Source: Streptomyces sp. SID8374 (GTDB taxonomy: Bacteria > Actinomycetota > Actinomycetes > Streptomycetales > Streptomycetaceae). From it: a DNA stretch of 64,000 nt. The notes below the pieces were generated by a model. That model had not been told where the DNA came from. It saw nothing but the letters and a program-made list of their open reading frames with translations, and made no database searches. Numbering within the stretch: position 1 is the first letter of the stretch; the number at the start of each line of letters is the position of its first letter. Shown one piece after another: positions 11,919 through 17,447 of the stretch. Location of the stretch: NCBI RefSeq assembly GCF_009865135.1, contig NZ_WWGH01000001.1:3906001-3970000 (forward strand). The letters run 5' to 3'. A program made the translations under genes and the position numbers.

Positions 11919-12578
11919 TCAGTCCAGCCGCAGGTCGGCGAGCTGCTGCTCGAAGGGGACGACCGCGTCCTCCCCGTCGTCCAGGCCCGGCGTCCGGGAG
12001 GCCCCGGAGACCGTGCGGCCCAGCACGGCCGAGGCCAGCTCGCCACCGGCGCGGCGGATCCGGGACGGCAGCCCCTCGGTGTACTCGTCGCCGGAGGAGC
12101 CCCAGTCCTCGGAGGCGGCGTAGACGGACGTCGGTACGGTGACGGCCCGCAGATAGGCGAAGAGCGGGCGCAGCGCGTGCTCCAGGACCAGCGAGTGGCG
12201 GGCCGTGCCGCCCGTCGCGGCGATCACGACGGGCTTGCCGGTCAGCGCGGTGTGGTCGATCAGGTCGAAGAACGACTTGAACAGACCGCTGTACGAGGCG
12301 GTGAACACCGGTGTCACGGCGATCAGCCCGTCCGCCTCGGTCACCGCGTCGATCGCCTCCCGCAGCCTGGCCGACGGGAACCCGCTGACCAGGTGGTTGG
12401 CGATGTCCACGGCGAGGTCGCGGACTTCGACGACCTGGACCTCGACGTTCCGGTCCTGCTCGGCCGCGAGGCGCTCGCGGGCGGCGGCGGCCAGCCGGTC
12501 GGCCAGCAGCCGGGTGGAGGACGGCTGGCTGAGCCCGGCCGAGACGGCCACGATGCGCAGGGGAGTGGTGGCGAACAT
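11919..12578 (-). CDS. FMN reductase (CE1759-like partner of LLM monooxygenase)
   Basis: About 219 residues from ATG 12578, which has a GGGGG ribosome site at a normal distance; an in-frame TTG three codons earlier is less likely. Flavodoxin-like fold with VAVSAGLSQPSSTRLLADRL (FMN phosphate loop) and TPVFTASYSGLFKSFFDLID, as in SsuE/CE1759 NAD(P)H:FMN reductases. It starts 5 bp after the stop of the upstream monooxygenase gene, so it should supply that enzyme with reduced FMN. Confidence 0.93.
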   Translation of the reverse strand: MFATTPLRIVAVSAGLSQPSSTRLLADRLAAAARERLAAEQDRNVEVQVVEVRDLAVDIANHLVSGFPSARLREAIDAVTEADGLIAVTPVFTASYSGLFKSFFDLIDHTALTGKPVVIAATGGTARHSLVLEHALRPLFAYLRAVTVPTSVYAASEDWGSSGDEYTEGLPSRIRRAGGELASAVLGRTVSGASRTPGLDDGEDAVVPFEQQLADLRLD

Positions 12579-12583
12579 GGAGG

Positions 12584-13675
12584 TCAAGCCCCCTTTCCAG
12601 CAGCTCGGGCGGCGGCGACCGCCGGGTGGACGGGCGCGGATTCCGGCACACCGGCCGGCCGCAGGTTGGCGAACTCCTTGCGCAGCACGGGCACGACCTC
12701 CTCGCCGAGGATGTCCAGCTGCTCCAGGACCGTCTTCAGCGGGAGCCCCGCGTGGTCCATCAGGAACAGCTGCCGCTGGTAGTCGCCGACCGCGTCCCGG
12801 AACGTCAGCGTCCGCTCGATGACCTCCTGCGGGGAGCCCACCGTCAGCGGGGTCTCGCGGGTGAAGTCCTCCAGGGACGGGCCGTGGCCGTAGACCGGCG
12901 CGTTGTCGAAGTACGGGCGGAACTCCCGTACCGCGTCCTGCGAGTTCTTCCGCATGAACACCTGGCCGCCGAGCCCGACGATGGCCTGTTCGGCGGTGCC
13001 GTGACCGTAGTGGGCGTAACGGCGCCTGTAGAGGTCCACCATCTTCTTGGTGTGCTCCATGGGCCAGAAGATGTTGTTGTGGAAGAACCCGTCACCGTAG
13101 TAGGCGGCCTGTTCCGCGATCTCCGGGGAGCGGATGGAGCCGTGCCAGACGAACGGCGGGACGCCGTCCAGCGGGCGCGGGGTCGCGGTGAAGGACTGGA
13201 GCGGCGTACGGAACTTGCCCTCCCAGTCCACGACCTCCTCGCGCCACAGCTTGTGCAGCAGGGCGTAGTTCTCGATGGCCATGGGGATGCCCTGGCGGAT
13301 GTCCTTGCCGAACCAGGGGTAGACCGGTCCGGTGTTGCCGCGGCCCATCATCAGGTCGACGCGGCCGTCCGCGAGGTGCTGGAGGGTGGCGTAGTCCTCG
13401 GCGATCTTCACCGGGTCGTTGGTGGTGATCAGGGTGGTGGACGTGGACAGGATCAGGTTCTCGGTGCGGGCCGCGATGTAGCCGAGTGTCGTCGTCGGGG
13501 AGGACGGGACGAACGGCGGGTTGTGGTGCTCGCCGGTCGCGAAGACGTCCAGACCGACCTCCTCGGCCTTCTGCGCGATGGCCAGGGTCGCCTTGATCCG
13601 CTCGTTCTCGGTCGGCGTCCGGCCGGTGGTCGGGTCGGTGGTGACGTCTCCGACGGTGAAGATCCCGAACTGCAT
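12584..13675 (-). CDS. LLM-class flavin-dependent monooxygenase (CE1758-like)
   Basis: 363 residues from ATG 13675 with an AGGAGG ribosome site. The luciferase-like TIM barrel is clear: MQFGIFTVGDVTTDP at the start, FATGEHHNPPFVPSSP, and LMMGRGNTGPVYPWFG. Uses FMNH2 from the adjacent reductase to oxidise an unknown organic substrate; the pair is common in actinobacteria. Directly upstream are five 16-bp tandem repeats, so expression is probably controlled by a repressor. Confidence 0.94.
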   Translation of the reverse strand: MQFGIFTVGDVTTDPTTGRTPTENERIKATLAIAQKAEEVGLDVFATGEHHNPPFVPSSPTTTLGYIAARTENLILSTSTTLITTNDPVKIAEDYATLQHLADGRVDLMMGRGNTGPVYPWFGKDIRQGIPMAIENYALLHKLWREEVVDWEGKFRTPLQSFTATPRPLDGVPPFVWHGSIRSPEIAEQAAYYGDGFFHNNIFWPMEHTKKMVDLYRRRYAHYGHGTAEQAIVGLGGQVFMRKNSQDAVREFRPYFDNAPVYGHGPSLEDFTRETPLTVGSPQEVIERTLTFRDAVGDYQRQLFLMDHAGLPLKTVLEQLDILGEEVVPVLRKEFANLRPAGVPESAPVHPAVAAARAAGKGA

Positions 13676-13700
13676 GGCGTCCGCCTCCTGAGCGATCCGT

Positions 13701-13780
13701 ACGAATGGGTTGAACGGCGAATGGGCTGAACAACGAACGGGATGAACGGTGAATGCATTGCACCCAAATTGGTTGAACGT
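13701..13780. repeat. Five imperfect 16-bp tandem repeats in LLM promoter
   Basis: Units at 13701, 13717, 13733, 13749 and 13765. The first three share the pattern RCGAAYGGGNTGAAC; units 4 and 5 are diverged, and the end adds the direct repeat GTTGAAC x2 (13772-13785). The array lies 25-105 bp upstream of the monooxygenase start, where an operator is expected. Confidence 0.8.
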
Positions 13781-13892
13781 TGAACTACACCCTACAACGG
13801 AGCACCCCCGGCACCTATTCCCGGGCGTACGCTGGCAGGGCCGCCGGTCCCGCCGGCGAGCCCGGGACCACCGGCGGAGGGAGGCGGAGACC

Positions 13893-14045
13893 ATGAGCGA
13901 AAAGGGCAGCGACACCGGCAGCGACAGCGAGAGCTGGAAGGCGCGGGGCGTCGCCCTGCGCGTCTTCGTCTACATTTTCGCGACGCACCTCTTCGCGGGC
14001 TTCATCTGGATCCTCTTCTACGTGGGCGGGCACGCGGACAAATAG
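13893..14045 (+). CDS. Small membrane protein (DUF6126-like)
   Basis: 50 residues from ATG 13893, preceded by GGAGGGAGGCGG. A polar, acidic head (SEKGSDTGSDSESWK), the phrase ARGVALRVFVYIFATHLFA and one TM ending FIWILFYVGGHADK. Matches my memory of the short single-TM DUF6126 proteins of Streptomyces; function unknown. Divergent from the LLM gene. Confidence 0.85.
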   Translation: MSEKGSDTGSDSESWKARGVALRVFVYIFATHLFAGFIWILFYVGGHADK

Positions 14046-14068
14046 CCGCCGCGTAAGCCCATGGCGGA

Positions 14069-14080
14069 TACACTGACCGC
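14069..14080 (+). promoter_or_regulatory. -10 element of leaderless trp leader transcript
   Basis: TACACT at 14069-14074 is 6 nt before the leader ATG at 14081, so transcription should begin at or next to the A of that ATG. No clear -35 is visible. Confidence 0.55.
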
Positions 14081-14122
14081 ATGACCTCCGTACCGTGCCG
14101 AAACTGGTGGCGCTCCTCCTAG
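14081..14122 (+). CDS. Trp-rich leader peptide of trpS attenuator
   Basis: A 13-residue frame, MTSVPCRNWWRSS, with two tandem TGG codons at 14105-14110 and a TAG stop. It has no Shine-Dalgarno and seems to be translated from a leaderless transcript. The Trp codons sit in the 5' arm of hairpin 14107-14131, and a terminator hairpin follows 34 nt later, upstream of the synthetase gene. This is the arrangement of ribosome-mediated attenuation: a ribosome stalled for Trp-tRNA would free the antiterminator pairing and switch trpS on. Seen in sequence; regulation is inferred. Confidence 0.8.
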   Translation: MTSVPCRNWWRSS

Positions 14123-14131
14123 GAGCGGCCA
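14107..14131 (+). promoter_or_regulatory. Attenuator hairpin 1:2 over the Trp codons
   Basis: GTGG-C-GCTCCT pairs with AGGAGC-GG-CCAC around a CCT loop and covers the second Trp codon and the leader stop. The segment CGGCC at its 3' side (about 14126-14130) can alternatively pair with GGCCG at 14157-14161, the 5' arm of the terminator, which would be the antiterminator. Confidence 0.65.
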
Positions 14132-14155
14132 CAGCATCTGTCTGCACGGAACCCA

Positions 14156-14182
14156 GGGCCGTTCACCATGGACGGCCCTTTT
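14156..14182 (+). terminator. Intrinsic terminator (attenuator) before trpS
   Basis: GGGCCGT (14156-14162) pairs with ACGGCCC (14172-14178), extendable by a G-U and a C-G pair, and is followed by TTTT at 14179-14182. U-tracts are rare after hairpins in this window, which makes this one stand out. It lies 102 bp before the trpS ATG. Confidence 0.8.
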
Positions 14183-14284
14183 CGCTGCCTTCTTTCAGGT
14201 GCGATGTACGGGAACGGGGCACCGCACGCCCCCCACCGCCCGGGCCGTCCTCCACGCACCCACCACCCGCGAGGAGACCCCGCT

Positions 14285-15385
<1,101 letters not shown>

Positions 15386-15437
15386 GCGGGTGCGCAAGCC
15401 CTTCCGGTAGGCACGCGGCCCCGGGACCGCCCGCCCC

Positions 15438-17447
15438 TCACTGCCTCGGCAGCACCGACCGCTGCCGCCGCAGCAGCTCCGCCAGCCCTCGCCGGGTGGC
15501 CGCGATCACCACCCGGTCCTGGGCGCGCAGCACATACCCGGGGTGCAGGTCCCAGACCAGGCCGGAGGGGGGCGGGGTGCCGCCTTCCGGGGGGTACGGG
15601 GGGAGCGCGGCGAGGTCCGGGTTGCGGTCGGCGGGCGGGGTGGCGTCGATGGCCAGGACCCGCCACGCGCCCGCCCGGAACGCCTGCTCCACCGTGCGCC
15701 CCTCCAGCTGCGGATGGCCCGCGACCTCCAGGGCGGCGAAGAGCATCACCTTCCGCTCCACCGGGACCGCGCCGAGGATCTGGCGGCCCATCATGGCGAC
15801 CGCGAAGGAGGGCGCGGCCAGGTGGGAGACGGACCGGGAGCGGGTCAGGGCCTGGGGGTGCGCGGTGCGCAGGGTGCGGTAGACGGCGGTGGCGAACTCG
15901 TCGTCGTACAGCCGCAGCGCCACCCTCAGGTCCGGCTTGACCGACCGCGCGTACAGCGTCGCTTCCAGGTTCGTCGTGTCGATGCTGGTGAGCGCGAGGA
16001 GGGCGTGGGCGCGGCGGATCTTGGCCGCTTCCAGGACACCTTCCTGGGTGACGTCGCCGATGACGGTCGGCACGTGCATGGAGCGGGCCAGCGGGATGCC
16101 CCGCGCCTCGGGGTCCTCCTCCACGACGACCACGGGGATGTCCAGCTCCCGCAGGCGTACGAGGACGCGCGTACCGATCTTGCCGAGCCCGAGCAGCACC
16201 ACGTGCCCCGACAGGCCACGCGGCGGGCGGCGCAGCGAGGAGGCGGTGCGCAGGGTGCCGAACGCCTCCAGGACGGCGGCGATGAGCAGCGGGAGCAGAA
16301 GGATCCCGGCGACCCCGGAGAAGATCTGGATGATCTTCCGTGCCGTCGTGCCGTCCTCCGATGGATCGTTCATGCTCAGCAGGTCGAGAAGGATGAGGTA
16401 GGCGGAGTGCAGCAGGCTGTCCTCGGTGGTGAGGACCGAGACGACCACCAGGGCGACCGCTGCCAGCACGAACCCGAGGGCGGACCAGCGCAGCCGCCGG
16501 GAGAAGATCTTGGCGAGCGGCGCGCCCCGGCCGCCCATCCGGGTCGCGGGACGGTCCGGGCCCGCCCGGCTGATCGCCTCCAGGACGACGGTGCCGCGTC
16601 CGTCGGCCGCGGCCACGGACTCCTCGTCGGGGAGGAGTTGGGGCGCCTCGTCGCCGCTGCTGTCCGAACCCTCCGCCCCCGCAGGGTCGTTGGTGGTGGA
16701 GGAGAGCAGCGCGAGGGTGCACAGGCCCGGGTCGAGGGTCTCGCCGGGGCGGGGCGGCGGACGTTCGGCGGCGCGCAGGAGCAGCCCCTCGGCCTGGACG
16801 ACCTTGCTGCTGCCGGTGAGCGCGGTGGCGGCGAGCGCGGGGGCGGCGGTGTCGGCGTCGGACAGGACGGTGGTGGAGGCGTCCAGCTGCGCCGGGTCGA
16901 TGCCGGGCATGGCGACGGCGGCCGCCTGGTCCAGCAGCTCCTCCAGGTGCTGCCCGAGCTTGCGGTTGTAGAGCCGGATCACCAGCCGCAGGCGGGGGTT
17001 GAGGCGGCGGGCGGTGAGGGCGGCGCGGATGTTGCGCTCGTCGTCGTCGTAGACGAGGGCGAGGGCGGCCGCCCGGTCGACGCCCGCCTCCTCCAGTACG
17101 TCGTCGGAGGGTTCGGGCGCCTCCATGATCCGGACGGCCTCGACCCCGGCGTTGGTGTCGTTGCCGCCCCCGTTCCCCGTGGCGGCGGTGCGGTTCATCG
17201 CCGCCGACATCCGGCCGAACAGGGCGGCCGCGCGCCCCCGTTGGGTCAACGGCGTCTCGGGGCTGTTGGCGTCGCGGCCGGGCGGCAGGAGCAGGGTGAC
17301 CCGCTCCCCGTAGACGAACCGCAGCTCCACGGCGAGCCGGCGCGCCAGCGCGTCGTCACCGCAGACGATCATGTGGCCGGTGGGCGAGGGCCGCCCCGGC
17401 TGCGGACGTCCTGGCTGCTGAGGAAGTGGGGGCACGAAACCCAGCAT
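15438..17447 (-). CDS. CASTOR/POLLUX-like RCK ion-channel protein
   Basis: 669 residues. A TrkA-N/RCK domain (HMIVCGDDALARRLAVEL, about 24-215) comes first, then two TMs (about 320-340 and 372-395), then a second RCK (SGHVVLLGLGKIGTRVLVRL, about 415 onward) and a C-terminal ligand-type domain. This order recalls CASTOR/POLLUX and DMI1-type channels. The loop between the TMs (LLDLLSMNDPSEDGTTARK) lacks a TVGYG potassium filter, so ion selectivity is unclear. ATG 17447 has GGAAGG and lies 30 bp after the giant ATPase gene, so it is probably last in that operon. Confidence 0.88.
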   Translation of the reverse strand: MLGFVPPLPQQPGRPQPGRPSPTGHMIVCGDDALARRLAVELRFVYGERVTLLLPPGRDANSPETPLTQRGRAAALFGRMSAAMNRTAATGNGGGNDTNAGVEAVRIMEAPEPSDDVLEEAGVDRAAALALVYDDDERNIRAALTARRLNPRLRLVIRLYNRKLGQHLEELLDQAAAVAMPGIDPAQLDASTTVLSDADTAAPALAATALTGSSKVVQAEGLLLRAAERPPPRPGETLDPGLCTLALLSSTTNDPAGAEGSDSSGDEAPQLLPDEESVAAADGRGTVVLEAISRAGPDRPATRMGGRGAPLAKIFSRRLRWSALGFVLAAVALVVVSVLTTEDSLLHSAYLILLDLLSMNDPSEDGTTARKIIQIFSGVAGILLLPLLIAAVLEAFGTLRTASSLRRPPRGLSGHVVLLGLGKIGTRVLVRLRELDIPVVVVEEDPEARGIPLARSMHVPTVIGDVTQEGVLEAAKIRRAHALLALTSIDTTNLEATLYARSVKPDLRVALRLYDDEFATAVYRTLRTAHPQALTRSRSVSHLAAPSFAVAMMGRQILGAVPVERKVMLFAALEVAGHPQLEGRTVEQAFRAGAWRVLAIDATPPADRNPDLAALPPYPPEGGTPPPSGLVWDLHPGYVLRAQDRVVIAATRRGLAELLRRQRSVLPRQ

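Follow-up and report, generated by a model that had tools for sequence, protein, structure and literature searches.

A conserved, predicted leaderless leader with the features of a tryptophan attenuator upstream of an auxiliary trpS gene in actinobacteria

Classical tryptophan attenuation, as in Escherichia coli trpL, combines tandem Trp codons with a logic of 1:2, 2:3 and 3:4 pairings. Several related systems have been described in actinobacteria. In Streptomyces lividans, start mapping showed both trpL1, ahead of trpE, and trpL2, ahead of trpS, to be leaderless (PMC8079986). For S. coelicolor trpRS1 (SCO3334), attenuation is credited to Vecchione and Sello (2010, J Bacteriol 192:3565), as cited in PMC4787780; a classical Trp attenuator was predicted for S. 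avermitilis trpS2 (Seliverstov et al. 2005, PMC1262725); and mycobacteria have attenuators built on leaderless polycysteine uORFs (Canestrari 2020, as cited in PMC13236596).

The locus considered here lies in a 64,000-nucleotide stretch of Streptomyces sp. SID8374 DNA (the window). The original prediction placed an attenuator with a leaderless leader peptide ahead of its trpS gene. This claim is supported, at the level of sequence, by promoter spacing, the absence of a Shine-Dalgarno sequence, Trp codons 9 and 10, covariation, and folds with a placed ribosome; the element at 14069-14285 is confirmed as real and conserved across many actinobacteria. Very probably it is a ribosome-mediated transcription attenuator, which would make an auxiliary tryptophanyl-tRNA synthetase (TrpRS) when charged tRNA-Trp is low. 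The novelty implied by the original prediction is smaller, because leaderless Trp leaders ahead of trpE and trpS had already been mapped in S. lividans. The attenuated auxiliary TrpRS of Streptomyces, the S. avermitilis trpS2 prediction, and leaderless trpL2 are all known. The interesting part is the repeated conservation of leaderlessness. A search of the open-licence literature for this conservation in the window TrpRS clade, for the P:D helix described below, and for the parallel between two TrpRS lineages found none of the three.

Anatomy of the leader element

The features are collected in Table 1. The leader codons are ATG ACC TCC GTA CCG TGC CGA AAC TGG TGG CGC TCC TCC TAG. The gap between TACACT and the leader ATG (14081-14083) is 6 nt, which would set the +1 at the start codon; a Shine-Dalgarno sequence is absent.

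Table 1. Features of the trpS leader region, in window coordinates
Feature	Position	Strand	Remark
Co-directional ORF MSEKGSDTGSDSESWKARGVALRVFVYIFATHLFAGFIWILFYVGGHADK, 50 codons	13893-14045	+	ends 35 nt before leader start
A-rich element ACAAATA	14038-14044	+	upstream of the missing -35 box
-10 element TACACT	14069-14074	+	TAnnnT 6 or 7 nt before the start in all 78 orthologous leaders whose start is unambiguous
Predicted +1, A of leader start codon (leaderless)	14081	+	inferred from -10 spacing; Shine-Dalgarno absent in 100/101 clade leaders
Leader peptide ORF MTSVPCRNWWRSS*	14081-14122	+	13 codons; sequence read
Arm P CCGUGC, codons 5-6	14093-14098	+	pairs with arm D in ribosome-free RNA; swap test
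Tandem Trp codons 9 and 10	14105-14110	+	first Trp is codon 9 in 95/101 clade leaders
Segment 1 GUGGCGCUCC	14107-14116	+	overlaps second Trp codon
Leader stop TAG	14120-14122	+	sequence read
Segment 2 GGAGCGGCCAC	14122-14132	+	core 14123-14130 is partner of segment 3
Arm D GCACGG, linker	14144-14149	+	partner of arm P; fold and swap test
Segment 3 GGGCCGUUC	14156-14164	+	used by both the antiterminator (2:3) and the terminator (3:4)
Segment 4 GGACGGCCC and U-tract UUUU, intrinsic terminator	14170-14182	+	sequence, fold, covariation
Shine-Dalgarno GAGGAG of trpS	14271-14276	+	sequence read
Auxiliary tryptophanyl-tRNA synthetase trpS, 366 aa	14285-15385	+	TIGR00233, 232.7 bits (cut-off 176.75)

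The sequence features of a trpL-type attenuator are present: a short tandem-Trp ORF ahead of the gene; a 1:2 hairpin that spans the second Trp codon and the stop, with the stop in its loop; mutually exclusive 2:3 and 3:4 helices, which share segment 3 and both co-vary; and an intrinsic terminator with a short U-tract. Terminator 3:4 has a G+C stem of 9 pairs, then UUUU (UUUUCG), and a consensus scan requiring 5 T does not call it at 14170-14182. The fold of 14081-14200 reaches -52.1 kcal/mol, against -39.3 (sd 4.1) for shuffles (z = -3.15). An Rfam scan of 12000-17000, covering T-box, riboswitch and other families, gave zero matches at the family cut-off.

The original prediction gave the order -10, ATG, 13-codon WW peptide, hairpin, alternative pairing and terminator, and this order is exact base for base. 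Its terminator stands as a stem with UUUU, but the tract is short and the strict scan misses it. Helices 1:2, 2:3 and 3:4 are present; the prediction overlooked a fourth, P:D, which closes the 1:2 hairpin from outside (14093-14098 with 14144-14149).

Conserved Trp codons and competing helices

The comparison set comprises 109 orthologous loci drawn from two partly overlapping collections, with some strains counted twice; there are 89 distinct leader sequences. Hosts include Streptomyces, Kitasatospora, Embleya, Kutzneria, Saccharopolyspora, Nonomuraea, Microbispora, Actinomadura, Streptosporangium, Microlunatus, Actinoplanes and others. WW leaders were picked up automatically at 97 of the 109 loci. 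Six of the other 12 have a one-Trp version: L013, L016 and L045, which read CGG TGG at the Trp pair, and the Actinoplanes/Winogradskya loci L089, L093 and L103. No WW-type leader was found upstream of trpS at five of the 109 loci (L022, L024, L026, L087 and L095). L030 (G173:C104) is a frame-disrupted second window-type trpS (70% identity); its genome carries an intact copy as well. More distant genomes of the class have VKSLVLVWWLPS and similar leaders. In the orthologous leaders the tandem UGG keeps its place while most other codons vary, and the distance from Trp to stop is nearly constant.

Thirty-eight divergent leaders were aligned to count paired cells for each helix: 95.8% for helix 1:2, 98.7% for antiterminator 2:3, and 99.4% for terminator 3:4. 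All three show compensatory changes, with a covariation score reached by no shuffle; the rows share descent, and shuffle counts are not probabilities. For example, where segment 2 changes from GAGCGGCC to GGACGGCC, segment 3 changes from GUUC to GUCC, and all three helices are kept.

The P:D helix is less regular. Rigid column counting in the window clade finds it in 55.9-76% of cells, a weak signal because the linker varies in length. The per-sequence swap test is clear: own arms pair at -12.5 kcal/mol and swapped arms at -9.7, and 0 of 5000 permutations were as low. Codon 6 is Cys in 86 of 89 leaders, probably because of P:D pairing.

Folds of the transcript before segment 4 emerges were computed with a ribosome footprint assumed to extend 13 nt past the A-site codon's first base. 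Ribosome-free RNA folds into P:D and 1:2; with the A site at Trp9 or Trp10, 2:3 forms; with the ribosome at the stop, neither arrangement forms. At full length, the equilibrium fold with a stalled ribosome lets the window 3:4 helix outcompete 2:3. The switch must therefore act kinetically, like the classical one.

These observations are consistent with the following mechanism. RNA polymerase would start at the A of the leader ATG, and a ribosome would load directly at the exposed 5' end with no help from a Shine-Dalgarno sequence, both steps being suggested by spacing and conservation. With ample Trp-tRNA, the ribosome would reach the stop at 14120 and cover segment 2, and terminator 3:4 would form. 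With scarce Trp-tRNA, it would stall at Trp codon 9 or 10, covering segment 1; 2:3 would then pair, and polymerase would continue into trpS. The pairings come from sequence and covariation; the stalling, the termination and the physiological response we infer. In ribosome-free RNA, P:D and 1:2 would form with 3:4 left free to terminate, so general loss of translation should not turn the gene on. The likely use of P:D is to hold the gene off when no ribosome loads. Set against the attenuator reading are the U-tract of only four U, the missing -35 box, and the upstream co-directional ORF, which allows read-through transcripts with longer 5' ends.

The uORF might instead sense a general slowing of translation, with the Trp codons incidental. 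Precedent exists: the wblC uORF is reported to sense slow translation in general, and published work found S. coelicolor SCO3334 to be WblC-dependent and antibiotic-induced. Moreover, both TrpRS clades (the second, SCO3334-like, is treated below) have an A-rich element at the WblC position, at -31 to -28 of the -10 element. In published work the WblC site, GAAAWY, is placed 3 nt 5' of the -35 box. A literal GAAAWY match was sought at the window's leader and its orthologues and not found; ACAAATA is tentatively a candidate WblC/WhiB7-type activator contact. An A-rich element without a -35 box suggests combined control by activator and attenuator. General sensing is nonetheless improbable: in each of two unrelated TrpRS clades the tandem UGG is held at a set codon position, and when ribosome loading fails, P:D with 1:2 would tip the balance towards termination.

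The predicted leaderless start

The spacing count (LEADERLESSNESS) was limited to leaders with a single possible in-frame start (n = 78), and TAnnnT lies 6 or 7 nt before the start in all 78. This unbiased count is preferred over one from 148 leaders, a set partly chosen by spacing, in which TAnnnT occurs elsewhere in the 60 nt upstream 3 times. A Shine-Dalgarno-like 4-mer is found at -16 to -5 in 1 of 101 clade leaders, compared with 67 of 74 of the longer (110 nt) stretches before trpS. In the folds, pairing is mostly absent from the start codon and the first eight bases (mean unpaired 0.72, versus 0.35 for the whole leader).

These data bear on a second alternative, in which the attenuator works as proposed but the main transcript starts upstream, and the peptide is reached by reinitiation or scanning. 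The co-directional ORF terminating at 14045, together with a search for a -35 box that found none at the leader promoter, speaks for such a start. Against it, the 6-7 nt spacing holds in every one of the 78 leaders, in families whose upstream sequences differ; no Shine-Dalgarno sequence precedes the leader; and both S. lividans leaders have leaderless starts (PMC8079986). An upstream start is improbable as well. The ORF itself, which ends 23 bases before the -10 element and is also found upstream in L016, probably encodes a small membrane protein.

That a short ORF, trpS and a terminator serving transcripts from upstream lie together by chance has a negligible probability and is already refuted by conservation across orthologous loci: the bare promoter and peptide pattern is not rare in the genome, so that a single sequence proves little, but the helices co-vary and the window-clade covariance model R1 has a single match in the genome (E 4.8e-18). 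In Streptomyces, R1 matches with E below 1e-15 lie directly 5' of window-type trpS, one per genome. The loose pattern TAnnnT-N5-8-ATG-...-TGGTGG was dropped as a detector; it occurs at 27 places in the genome and at 26 in a reversed control, which is only noise.

Two TrpRS lineages and their leaders

The original prediction had raised the matter of a second trpS, and the genome has one other, of housekeeping type and about 35% identical to the window protein. A second gene beside the housekeeping one is the arrangement of the S. griseus SGR_3809-type auxiliary TrpRS. Solved relatives of the window TrpRS include, among the best ones, 2a4m, 'Tryptophanyl-tRNA synthetase II'. The window TrpRS is probably an indolmycin-type-resistance enzyme. 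Where housekeeping and SCO3334-type enzymes have the motif DLHA(I/L)T, it has DYQVLT. The His of this motif contacts indolmycin in Bacillus TrpRS, so the replacement may bear on the predicted resistance.

Most other Streptomyces have a different, SCO3334-like auxiliary TrpRS, 49% identical to the housekeeping enzyme and 37% to the window protein. By their leaders, both SCO3334 of S. coelicolor and SLIV_21110 of S. lividans seem to be of this type. The SCO3334 type is closer to the housekeeping enzyme than is the window type, and the two auxiliary lineages are not sisters. Among 101 Streptomyces genomes, 4 have both types, 17 the window type only, 59 the SCO3334 type only, and 21 neither (Fisher p 7e-6; genomes not independent), so the types are largely mutually exclusive.

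In three of the four genomes with both types, the window-type gene has no WW-type leader. At L024, L026 and L095, closely spaced (A)TCTGG repeats lie by a GTATA/CTATA-like box in place of a WW leader (for example GTATACCTGGAACCATCTGGTCTGCCTCTGG in L024); L022 has a degenerate version. The repeats look like another operator, a putative one. The L022, L024 and L026 genomes also carry SCO3334-type TrpRS.

At 30 of 30 loci the SCO3334-type gene follows a leaderless leader, 12-14 codons long and in most cases ending WWAA*; the search required the -10 spacing, which all 30 passed. Its stems, GGCCGCC / CGGCGGCC / GGCCGCCG, differ from those of the window while the layout is alike. The 2:3 stem is invariant in this clade, leaving the swap test without contrast to measure. 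The P:D arms pair at -15.9 (own) versus -12.8 (swapped), and both sides change in 6 of 8 pairs. The window-clade covariance model finds the SCO3334-type leader weakly and a trpE leader more weakly still. The same genome has a leaderless triple-Trp leader, MSTQQIQISIQNWWWTAHPAAR, at G000:C1:1595731 (L180, G000:C1:1595600-1598200); it precedes an anthranilate synthase-like gene and matches S. lividans trpL1.

It is possible, though short of an even chance, that leaderless initiation has been selected as a functional part of actinobacterial Trp attenuators, and that two non-sister TrpRS lineages share this design and a co-varying P:D through convergence or transfer of the control region. If so, leaderless loading would give the ribosome and polymerase a fixed starting point for their race, and P:D would hold the gene off whenever ribosome loading fails. 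Well over 100 natural variants of this very small transcription-translation switch, with ribosome loading on a bare 5' end, make testable how leaderless initiation keeps up with polymerase, a question with no classical E. coli counterpart. As a tRNA-charging sensor before an auxiliary TrpRS, the leader could also report TrpRS inhibitors through its read-through.

Comparison with known systems sets the window leader in place. Unlike it, E. coli trpL has a 5' UTR and a Shine-Dalgarno sequence and controls a biosynthetic operon. The mycobacterial polycysteine uORFs, as described in the citing paper, share a leaderless short ORF through which amino acid supply controls downstream expression, but respond to cysteine rather than Trp and precede other operons. 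The S. avermitilis trpS2 prediction likewise places a Trp attenuator ahead of a Streptomyces trpS; leaderlessness is not discussed there (PMC1262725). S. coelicolor trpRS1, as cited, is also an auxiliary, antibiotic-resistant TrpRS under ribosome-mediated transcriptional attenuation, but belongs to the other TrpRS clade. The S. lividans TK24 trpL2-trpS leader, MMTRTCTQLWRAA (PMC8079986), apparently of the SCO3334 type by its leader, differs in its TrpRS lineage (its enzyme and the window protein are 37% identical), in its stem sequences, in having one Trp codon where relatives of the gene mostly have leaders ending WWAA*, and in that no U-rich stretch is reported (PMC8079986). The two nevertheless share a 13-codon leaderless leader with Trp near its end, two hairpins, and a TrpRS gene downstream.
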